The notes under the pieces are model-generated. The model ran no database searches. It saw only the letters and a program-made list of their open reading frames with translations, and was not told the origin of the DNA. Below, piece after piece: positions 9,230 to 25,861 of a stretch of 57,750 bases of DNA (within the stretch, counting starts at the first letter, position 1; every line of letters starts with the position of its first letter). The translations under genes and the position numbers were made by a program. The DNA is from Oscillospiraceae bacterium (GTDB lineage: Bacteria; Bacillota; Clostridia; UMGS1840), in assembly GCA_015068645.1 (NCBI GenBank), contig SVKD01000014.1, forward strand, positions 1 to 57,750, written 5' to 3'.

Positions 9230-10096
9230 TCATTCCTTATTGCCGATTTTATTGGAAAGCAGGCGAATTACGGTATCCGCCACAACTTTTCCTGAGGAAA
9301 CAGGGGCAACCTTGCCGGGAAGAGATAAGGCATGTGTGACCTCCACTCCCAGCTTTTGTGCAGCTTCCCGGTCAACACCGCCCGGAAGAGATGCCAAATC
9401 CACAAACAGACAGTTTTTGGGTATTTTCTTTAGCAAATCTTCTGAAAAAACCATAAAGGGAACGGTGTTAAATATGATATCCATTTTGGGTAATTCATCG
9501 GAAAGCACATCATAGGACACAGGAATGCATCCATCCAGCTTCATTTTCGTAAGATGGGCAGGGCTTCGGGATGCCACATAGGTAACGGCTCCCAAAGAAC
9601 ACATCATCTTTGCCAGAAAGTACCCGATTCTGCCGTATCCGGTAATTAAAACAGATGCGCCCAGCAATGAAATAGGCGTTTTTGCAATTGCCAGTTCCAA
9701 GGCTGCCTCTGCGGTAAGATAGGCATTTTGTAATAAAAAACCTTCGTCATCGGCATAATCGGTTACCCGGTTTTGAAAACAATCCGGAAGTTTTTGTGCC
9801 ATTCCGCAAAAAACAGTTGTGTGTTTTGGTATTTTGAAAAACAGCTCGTGTAAAGAAATTTCTCCTTCCCAAAGGGGAGTATTCAGCAATTTCCCGTCCC
9901 GTGTAACCGGAAGTGGTAACATGACACAATCGGAATCGGATAGCATTTCCGACAAATCAGCAGGTTCGGATAACCCCATAAGATAGTCCTCATGAAAACC
10001 ATATACCCTTACGTCAAACCCCTGCTCCTTACAATGTTTTGCAGCAAAAATCTGCCGTAAGTCACCACCGATAACCAAAATTTTTTTACCCATCAT
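9230..10096 (-). CDS. dpaA: Dipicolinate synthase subunit A
   Basis: The 288-residue SpoVFA-type protein has an N-terminal domain (KKILVIGGDLRQIFAAKHC) and a Rossmann NAD(P)-binding motif in the second half (LITGYGRIGYFLAKMM, near residue 150). It is the oxidoreductase-like partner of DpaB in dipicolinic acid synthesis. The start is the first of two adjacent ATG codons, preceded by GGGAAAGGGATGGG. A CATACCTT box on the minus strand at 10151-10158 resembles a mother-cell sigma factor -10, but no convincing -35 is at the right distance, so I do not claim a promoter. Confidence 0.95.
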   Translation of the reverse strand: MMGKKILVIGGDLRQIFAAKHCKEQGFDVRVYGFHEDYLMGLSEPADLSEMLSDSDCVMLPLPVTRDGKLLNTPLWEGEISLHELFFKIPKHTTVFCGMAQKLPDCFQNRVTDYADDEGFLLQNAYLTAEAALELAIAKTPISLLGASVLITGYGRIGYFLAKMMCSLGAVTYVASRSPAHLTKMKLDGCIPVSYDVLSDELPKMDIIFNTVPFMVFSEDLLKKIPKNCLFVDLASLPGGVDREAAQKLGVEVTHALSLPGKVAPVSSGKVVADTVIRLLSNKIGNKE

Positions 10097-23534: not shown

Positions 23535-23556
23535 GTAGGGGACGATGCCCATCCCG
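23535..23556 (+). repeat. 27-bp palindromic repeat, family A, truncated copy A1
   Basis: GTAGGGGACGATGCCCA is identical to the full 27-bp element at 23960; the right arm is shortened by an internal deletion. It lies upstream of the RHH-RAYT pair. Confidence 0.75.
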
Positions 23557-23585
23557 TTGTATAATTTTTCAATACTGTTAACATC

Positions 23586-23614
23586 ATTATATCATATCTT
23601 TTTTAAAATTGCAA
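23586..23614 (-). promoter_or_regulatory. Promoter of the Cys-rich gene
   Basis: On the minus strand, TTGCAA (23609-23614), 17 bases, TATAAT (23586-23591). The -35 hexamer is self-complementary, so it could also serve rightward transcription toward the RHH-RAYT pair, though there the candidate -10 (TACAAT) is only 15 bases away. An inverted pair TGCAATACA/TGTATTGCA flanks the start of the RHH transcript region. Confidence 0.65.
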
Positions 23615-23676
23615 TACATTTGCTATGCATACAATTAAAATATTTTTATATATAATTGTATTGCAGAGGTGATATT

Positions 23677-23850
23677 ATGAAAAACTTTAAAATACCGTCA
23701 ATTCCACCAACAACCAACAAATGTATCCGATTTCCCAACGATATTATTGCAAATGTTGAAAAAGCGATTGAAGGAAAAAATTGCACATTTACAGCTTTTG
23801 TGGTAGAAGCTGTACGAGTGGCACTGGAAAACATTGAAGATGAAAAATGA
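23677..23850 (+). CDS. Small ribbon-helix-helix-like protein coupled to the transposase
   Basis: This 57-residue protein starts at the ATG at 23677 (AGAGGTGAT upstream) rather than an upstream in-frame ATG at 23656. It looks like an RHH DNA-binding protein: a strand NKCIRFPNDI followed by two helices (IANVEKAIEG; TFTAFVVEAVRVALENIED). The last codons overlap the start of the RAYT gene by 11 bases, so translation is probably coupled. I infer that it represses its own transcript or binds the repeats handled by the transposase. The RHH call rests on pattern only. Confidence 0.7.
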   Translation: MKNFKIPSIPPTTNKCIRFPNDIIANVEKAIEGKNCTFTAFVVEAVRVALENIEDEK

Positions 23851-24328
23851 TTTTCCAAAACGAAAACCGAATAGACTCCGAGAATATGATTATTCTACAC
23901 CAGGCGCATATTTCATTACAATCTGTGTAAAAGGCAGAAAACAACTGTTAGGAAAAATCGTAGGGGACGATGCCCACATCGTCCCGAAAAACTATTTGTC
24001 AAATTATGGTTTAATATGTGATAAATATATTAACAGCATAAATGTTAAATATGAAAATGTAACGGTTGATAAATATGTGATAATGCCCAACCATATACAT
24101 TTGATTATATTTCTTAACGGGACGATGTGGGCATCGTCTCCTACACTTAGTATAGAATCTATCATCCGATCCTTTAAAACGATGGTAACAAAACAAATCG
24201 GTAGTTCTATATGGCAACGTTCTTATCACGACCATATCATCCGTGATGAAAATGACTACCAAAAAATATGGGAATATATTGACAATAATGTAACACAATG
24301 GGAAATGGATTGTTTTTATGAAGAATGA
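23840..24328 (+). CDS. REP-associated tyrosine transposase (RAYT, IS200-like Y1 family)
   Basis: This ~162-residue protein matches RAYTs: N-terminal RLREYDYSTPGAYFITICVKGR, the HUH motif in IMPNHIHLIIF, and the C-terminal IWQRSYHDHIIRDENDYQKIWEYI with the nucleophilic tyrosine region. RAYTs are single-copy domesticated relatives of IS200/IS605 transposases that spread short palindromic repeats. I use the ATG at 23840; a TTG at 23834 is also open. Two full 27-bp palindromes lie inside the coding sequence, in frame, encoding IVGDDAHIVP and NGTMWASSP, and another lies downstream. All catalytic motifs seem intact. It is followed by a strong terminator. Confidence 0.9.
   Translation: MKNDFPKRKPNRLREYDYSTPGAYFITICVKGRKQLLGKIVGDDAHIVPKNYLSNYGLICDKYINSINVKYENVTVDKYVIMPNHIHLIIFLNGTMWASSPTLSIESIIRSFKTMVTKQIGSSIWQRSYHDHIIRDENDYQKIWEYIDNNVTQWEMDCFYEE
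23960..23986 (+). repeat. 27-bp palindromic repeat, family A, copy A2 inside RAYT
   Basis: The arms GGGACGATG and CATCGTCCC pair around a CCCA core. It is read in frame within the RAYT gene and is 27 bases long, so it preserves the frame. Confidence 0.85.
24118..24144 (-). repeat. 27-bp palindromic repeat, family A, copy A3 inside RAYT
   Basis: The reverse complement of copy A2 with one mismatch (TCTCC for TCCCC). It is in frame inside the RAYT gene, in inverted orientation to A2. Confidence 0.85.
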
Positions 24329-24330
24329 AA

Positions 24331-24366
24331 AACTGCAGTAAGCCACTACTTACTGCAGTTTTTTTA
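24331..24366 (+). terminator. Terminator of the RHH-RAYT pair
   Basis: A 12-bp perfect stem (AACTGCAGTAAG/CTTACTGCAGTT, loop CCACTA) is followed by six Ts, two bases after the stop. Confidence 0.92.
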
Positions 24367-24405
24367 TTGTTGTGCATTTCTCCAACATTTTCAGAAAATC
24401 TCACA

Positions 24406-24432
24406 CGGGACGATGTGGGCATCGTCCCCTAC
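24406..24432 (-). repeat. 27-bp palindromic repeat, family A, copy A4
   Basis: Exact reverse complement of copy A2, lying 78 bases after the RAYT stop. Together the four copies show two forward elements to the left and two inverted ones to the right. Confidence 0.85.
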
Positions 24433-24658: not shown

Positions 24659-25861
24659 TTATTCGATAACGGAAGTAACAGCGCCGGAACCTACGGTTCT
24701 ACCACCTTCACGGATAGCGAATCTTAAACCTTCTTCGATAGCGATAGGTTTAATTAATTCAACTTCCATTTCAACGTTATCACCAGGCATGCACATTTCG
24801 GTGCCTGCGGGTAATTTGATCTGACCGGTTACGTCGGTAGTTCTGAAATAGAACTGGGGTCTGTAATCATTGAAGAAAGGAGTATGTCTACCACCTTCTT
24901 CTTTGGTTAAAACGTAAACCTGAGCTTTGAATTTGGTGTGGGGTTTAATGGTACCGGGTTTTGCTAATACCTGACCTCTTTCGATTTCAGTTCTCTGAAC
25001 ACCACGGAGCAGTAAACCAACGTTATCACCAGCTTCAGCGTAGTCCAGTAATTTTCTGAACATTTCGATACCGGTAACAACGATTTTTCTAGCTTCTTCA
25101 GCTAAACCAACCAGTTCAACTTCGTCGTTTAATTTTAACTGACCTCTTTCTACTCTACCGGTAGCAACAGTACCACGACCGGTAATGGTGAATACGTCTT
25201 CAACAGGCATTAAGAAAGGCAGGTCAGCTTTTCTTTCCGGAGTAGGAATGTAAGCGTCAACCTGATCCATCAGAGCCAGGATGGGAGCATATTCAGGAGC
25301 AGAAGGATCGGTAGCAGCACATTCTAATGCCATTAAAGCAGAACCGCTTACGATCGGAATATCGTCGCCGGGGAATTCATATTCATTTAACAGTTCTCTG
25401 ATTTCCATTTCAACTAATTCCAGTAATTCGGGATCGTCAACCTGGTCAGCTTTGTTCATGAATACAACAATGTAGGGAACGCCTACCTGACGGGATAACA
25501 GGATGTGTTCTCTGGTCTGAGGCATCGGACCGTCAGCAGCAGATACAACTAAGATAGCGCCGTCCATCTGAGCAGCACCGGTGATCATGTTTTTAACATA
25601 GTCAGCATGGCCGGGGCAGTCAACGTGAGCGTAGTGTCTGGTATCGGTTTCATATTCTACGTGAGCGGTAGAAATGGTGATACCTCTTTCTCTTTCTTCG
25701 GGAGCTTTGTCGATCATGTCGTAAGCTTCGTACTGAGCCTGACCTTTCATAGCCAGAACTTTGGTAATAGCTGCGGTTAAGGAAGTTTTACCGTGGTCAA
25801 CGTGGCCGATAGTACCAATGTTAACGTGCGGTTTGCTTCTTTCGAATTTAGCTTTTGCCAT
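24659..25861 (-). CDS. tuf: Elongation factor Tu
   Basis: This 400-residue GTPase delivers aminoacyl-tRNA to the ribosome. All motifs are present: [10 protein letters not shown], the switch-1 region [36 protein letters not shown], and NKAD at G4. The C-terminus carries the domain 2/3 barrels and ends [10 protein letters not shown]. It is the last gene of the rpsL-rpsG-fusA-tuf cluster, 72 bases after fusA. Confidence 0.99.

Follow-up and report, generated by a model that had tools for sequence, protein, structure and literature searches.

Among the closest described systems to the locus analysed here are the REPtrons, composed of a RAYT (REP-associated tyrosine transposase) gene and flanking REPs (Nunvar 2010, PMC2817692) and including E. 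coli RayT/TnpAREP (structure 4er8). According to that study, every RAYT ORF has an inverted pair of REPs around it; the origin of the REPs was left open there, and both this origin and the reason why RAYT genes keep a REP pair have been open questions since RAYTs were first described. Like the REPtrons, our locus combines an IS200/IS605-related HUH/tyrosine enzyme of the same fold with an inverted pair of GTAG-headed REP hairpins at the gene. In the REPtrons the REPs flank the ORF, whereas the pair here is part of the coding sequence and falls in two loops of the protein.

Two other systems share part of this arrangement. In REPINs (PMC3116915), two inverted REPs surround a short spacer, as do the two in-gene copies described below (median spacer of 145 nt); here, however, what separates the two copies is coding sequence for the HUH core, and the likeness is one of layout. 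In-frame palindromic repeats within protein genes are also represented by intragenic GTAG/CGTC REPs (PMC3733652) and by the Rickettsia palindromic elements cited there. In the passages of that paper used here, the intragenic repeats occur in various genes and mostly at differing sites, whereas ours sit, family-wide, at two fixed positions of the cognate transposase gene; the same passages place REPs at or overlapping the ends of RAYT genes and do not mention the interior. A literature search over titles, abstracts and selected passages returned no account of REPs within the body of a RAYT gene, though a prior description may exist.

The window, i.e., the whole stretch of DNA that was analysed, comprises 57,750 nucleotides of Oscillospiraceae bacterium (GCA_015068645.1, contig SVKD01000014.1, positions 1-57,750, forward strand); its genome is labelled G000. 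S1 and S2 designate the two protein loops, and the corresponding gene sites, which hold the in-gene REPs, and the terms forward and inverted are relative to the RAYT gene. The features of the locus are:

23535..23551, plus strand (forward): decayed half REP 5' of the RAYT gene, with 17 matching bases and without hairpin
23840..24328, plus strand: RAYT gene (Y1_Tnp), 162 aa from ATG, open ORF
23960..23986, plus strand (forward): in-gene REP at S1, exact 27-mer GTAGGGGACGATGCCCACATCGTCCCG, coding VGDDAHIVP
24083..24100, plus strand: HUH core motif MPNHIH, between both in-gene REPs, invariant in two alignments of the family
24118..24144, minus strand (inverted): in-gene REP at S2, 1 mismatch to GTAGGGGACGATGCCCACATCGTCCCG, coding (N)GTMWASSP(T)
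24275..24277, plus strand: invariant Tyr codon (EYI..N motif), Y139 in the second alignment, the presumed nucleophile by analogy with the family
24406..24432, minus strand (inverted): external REP copy 3' of the RAYT gene, exact 27-mer

The original prediction, that this gene carries its own REP twice in frame, is borne out by the exact copy at 23960 and the inverted one with a single mismatch at 24118. It had also placed copies on both sides of the gene, and all four lie at the positions it gave; downstream, the inverted copy at 24406 is intact and exact, whereas upstream the copy at 23535, which it had marked as truncated, is a decayed half. As single-stranded DNA, the three intact copies (z about -6) fold into hairpins of -10.7, -7.9 and -10.7 kcal/mol, and the folding test gives no hairpin for the half copy (z 0.03). 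The outer pair of REPs has half decayed, and the inverted pair that is intact lies within the ORF and does not flank it as in a REPtron. The repeat itself has the attributes of a REP, namely a GTAG head, a hairpin and many copies in the genome. A count of the 27-mer, proposed as a check, revealed 17 copies within 3 mismatches in G000, compared to 0 for the reversed control: 2 in the RAYT gene, 3 in ORFs of 105-123 aa and 12 outside any ORF of at least 100 aa. The dispersed copies form two REP subfamilies, GACGATG..CATCGTC and GACGGTG..CACCGTC, the latter of which is carried by no RAYT ORF in G000.

In profile searches, the window protein passes the cut-off of PF01797 (Y1_Tnp) and falls under that of the RAYT model NF047646 (61.3 versus 80 bits; its paralog scores 78), the region of which covers the variable loops. 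Given its fold and its association with REPs, we call it a RAYT relative from a divergent group. The structure model of the protein (pLDDT 88.5) matches best, among the solved structures compared, 4er8, i.e., E. coli TnpAREP with bound REP (Z 13.2, rmsd 2.7 over 127 residues). In this model, the stretch encoded by the S1 REP, residues 34-42, makes up a beta-hairpin turn, and that encoded by the S2 REP, residues 86-97, is the loop joining the HUH strand to the next helix; judging from the alignment and the model, both loops tolerate length change.

The arrangement is not peculiar to this gene. A second RAYT in the same genome (G000:C8:93360, designated L018), 53% identical to the first, carries a different 27-bp GTAG palindrome at both of the same places. 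Relatives were gathered by protein similarity, giving 95 distinct genes and 91 after clustering at 80% identity; the 91 are a non-random sample of RAYTs, mostly from Clostridia and from metagenome assemblies, and their tree is weakly resolved. Site S1 is occupied by a GTAG hairpin in 62 of the 91 genes, in all 62 cases forward and in one frame, with GTA as a codon. Site S2 is occupied in 73 of the 91, by 78 units of which 74 are inverted and 4 forward, and the inverted units are read in frames 0, 2 and 1 in 50, 16 and 8 cases, respectively. Both sites are filled in 55 genes and neither in 11. The density of GTAGG hairpins is 4.8 per kb at S1 and 6.3 at S2, compared to 0.20 elsewhere in the gene and 0.15 in distant flanks, a more than 20-fold difference, and this density together with the reversed controls rules out chance palindromes in coding DNA. 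Likewise, a single recent insertion in G000 is ruled out by the L018 paralog and by the pattern shared by most relatives. In the E. coli rayT control every REP lies outside the ORF, and in more distant RAYTs of the phylum the REPs are more often outside the gene. Single members of the family come from Spirochaetes, Chloroflexi and others, and a viral collection contained 4 matches, 1 of them close.

The repeat that fills the two fixed sites differs from gene to gene. The S1 of a gene, compared with the inverse of its own S2, scores at least 14 in 61 of 95 genes, versus 4.5% of cross pairs (0 of 2000 permutations), and the match persists after correction for protein similarity (partial r of 0.78, 0.92 and 0.93 in three length classes). 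Of the REPs in the flanks, 48 of 166 are of the in-gene type of their own locus, whereas 5.6 would be expected with the type of another gene. Each gene's two copies thus resemble one another and the surrounding copies, and differ from the copies in other genes.

What is conserved in the repeats is the DNA, kept by selection or by homogenisation. The Val-Gly codons of S1 are GTA GGG in 63 of 63 genes; elsewhere in those genes GTA accounts for 28% of Val codons and GGG for 20% of Gly codons. Among 23 homolog pairs, independent as pairs and all from one family, differences occur at 13 of 203 fourfold sites within the repeats, as against 356 of 674 elsewhere (p 3e-37). Ascertainment bias, which could arise because a hairpin was demanded in both genes, was rejected by repeating the test on 29 pairs with the repeat defined by one gene only: the differences were 14 of 223 (6%) inside versus 464 of 787 (59%) outside (p 1e-50), and it is this disparity that establishes conservation at the DNA level. 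The partner gene kept S1 in 20 of 23 cases and S2 in 21 of 25. In addition, stem positions covary with their partners in the coding DNA (the units were chosen as hairpins, which inflates the pairing itself and not the variety of pairs), and the 26-nt class often retains a mismatch, G.A or A.G, at pair 7. In E. coli, a stem bulge is reported to be needed for activity (PMC8266576). As the S2 repeats are read in three frames, the S2 peptide is not conserved while its DNA is.

These results bear on three expectations of the original prediction. The residues at S1 and S2 do covary with each gene's own repeat, as seen in the S1-S2 and flank matching and in the GTA GGG codons; the 27-mer also being present elsewhere in the genome, neither of the two outcomes that counted as refuting the prediction occurred. 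That the frame is kept because the repeat has 27 bases is not general, since units in the family measure 23-27 nt and S2 accommodates three frames. A joint function, whereby the element supplies DNA targets and peptide at once, is not supported as stated, given the 50/16/8 split of the S2 frames. The family provides a clear natural case of a coding sequence with a strong second, non-protein message.

Gene-internal and nearby external REPs tend to replace each other. A forward REP lies within 160 nt upstream in 14 of the 29 genes that lack S1 versus 4 of the 62 that have it (p 1e-5), and an inverted REP lies downstream in 6 of 18 genes without S2 versus 5 of 73 with S2 (p 0.007). In total, the HUH core is bracketed by a forward REP on its 5' side and an inverted one on its 3' side, in or just outside the ORF, in 68 of the 91 genes; 23 are without the full bracket. 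This replacement and the inverted bracketing support the idea of sites that act in cis on the gene encoding the transposase, with one on each strand: characterised RAYTs act on the hairpin of the REP strand and not on its reverse (PMC8266576), and an inverted pair therefore gives one site on each strand. Furthermore, a pair located inside the ORF cannot mark where a unit containing the complete gene begins and ends. For this group, an in-gene pair that is preserved nearly letter for letter at silent sites thus excludes such unit ends and points to a local role.

The simplest interpretation is that the pair acts in cis on the gene itself, and its role may be self-regulation, provision of a REP source or mobility. 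We favour, with a little more confidence than doubt, the view that the RAYT gene absorbed its own recognition hairpins and kept them as DNA sites for binding or nicking by the enzyme it encodes. The two mutually inverted REPs, in surface loops on either side of the HUH core, would be held as DNA sites and not for their peptide. With one GTAG hairpin per strand, whichever strand becomes single-stranded (e.g., the lagging-strand template) would offer the enzyme one site. We infer that the enzyme would recognise the in-gene copies, and that such binding or nicking may limit its own expression or activity. As a consequence or second benefit, a source copy of the REP would remain tied to the enzyme at every location that the gene reaches. 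The suggestion that the repeats could bring the transposase to its own gene agrees with the orientation rule and with the silent-site conservation. On the other side, 11 of the 91 genes have no in-gene REP, the bracket is incomplete in the 23 noted above, and the window contains an extra external copy downstream, all of which are points against self-targeting. A more demanding version, about which we are slightly more sceptical than convinced, is that of a dual-coded self-targeting gene, in which selection holds an exact hairpin for each strand within the ORF and the gene is necessarily a substrate for the enzyme it encodes. If the proposed reading is true, genomes with only the in-gene REP pair would represent the state from which dispersed REPs arise. 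The question of the role is directly testable through synonymous recoding.

The repeats may, alternatively, have no function, residing in insertion-tolerant loops and being rewritten by conversion, template switching or re-insertion from the current genomic REP; we consider this account unlikely, although where donor copies exist homogenisation could yield much of the silent-site pattern. Dispersed donors of the same type are present in many genomes: in counts that cover a handful of REP types and genomes, some of the latter incomplete, copies of the matching class are numerous in G016 (54), G027 (19) and G000 and G102 (17 each). Both sites are loops that tolerate length change, and S1 and S2 often match exactly. 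In five other genomes (G115, G127, G138, G174 and G043), however, the searched REP types are almost confined to the RAYT gene. Passive rewriting would also not be expected to produce the fixed orientation or the trade-off with external copies, and the retained G.A stem mismatch likewise speaks against it. A further comparison is that of L155 and L156, which encode 80% identical proteins and differ at 24% of nucleotides outside the repeats. In both genes S1 is unlike S2, and each of the repeats is identical across the two species, which means that neither site is being converted by the other; as for other donors of the same type, G174 has none and G107 has two, at two mismatches. With so few donors or none, selection is favoured, although not proven, over homogenisation as the sole preserving force.

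A role in the mRNA is much less probable. According to this explanation, S1 and S2 would pair inversely over 27 bases in the transcript and control translation or stability, without DNA recognition. The two do pair in the predicted RAYT mRNA, which is unusually stable (z -5.97), but such pairing is automatic for any two inverted copies. Pairing has no need for GTAG, which is kept to the letter; the two repeats are unmatched in L155 and L156; and the replacement of in-gene copies by external ones would not be explained. Finally, the proposal that the loops encoded by the REPs have a function in the enzyme, e.g., contacting the REP, so that protein and target change together, draws on their location, next to the HUH strand in one case and in the beta hairpin in the other, and on residues that change with the repeat, but it is highly improbable in view of the three S2 frames, which yield unrelated peptides from the same DNA arrangement, and of silent sites kept as strongly as the rest.

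Mobility deserves separate mention. An IS200/IS605 insertion sequence would be a mobile unit whose hairpin-bearing ends are beyond the transposase gene. Alignment of the window RAYT gene with its relative L135 covers the ORF only. In another genome, G008, a related RAYT is multi-copy (L198-L208); the copies share a 5' boundary, with the hairpin ATCGGCAGAG...CTCTGCCGAT, and lie in unrelated surroundings. Internally deleted, dispersed derivatives retain the HUH stretch and the REPs, and nearly all 17 copies of the REP of this genome are pairs or triplets within RAYT copies or derivatives. A multi-copy relative with all of its REP copies inside could point to mobility rather than regulation. As regards movement of the S1-HUH-S2 piece in the manner of a REPIN, the boundaries of the rearranged multi-copy derivatives are not exactly at the REPs. 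Two of the copies, L205 and L206 (G008:C20 and C14), are chimeric RAYTs with a junction a few codons upstream of the S1 REP of the second RAYT. L203 contains REP arrays with a period of about 42 bp (about 516-885 and 1240-1515), located upstream of the RAYT and between its N-terminal part and the HUH motif.

Several minor observations concern individual loci. In L062 and L065, the S2 loop contains the REP-encoded segment in tandem (e.g., TGPSGTPAPTRE repeated), indicating that the REP unit expanded in frame. L070 comprises two identical tandem RAYT copies, at 10021 and 10809, with a period of 788 bp, which is possibly an assembly effect. G061, of the same genus as the window genome, has 11 copies of the window REP class, mostly on contig C71, and no RAYT relative was found there; the REPs may have outlived or lack their transposase, or the assembly may have a gap. 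In the window, a small YlcI/YnfO-type ORF (NF041551; 23677-23850) overlaps the start of the RAYT gene, and relatives more than 90% identical to it occur upstream of the RAYT only in L155 and L158; considered as a candidate linked regulator, it is present at only 3 of the 91 loci. The window RAYT also adjoins a convergent tuf gene (24659-25861). RAYTs just 3' of tuf are found in five other loci as well (L083, L084, L095, L099 and L108), and three of the tuf-adjacent RAYT proteins that were compared are only 42-44% identical to one another and carry different REPs.
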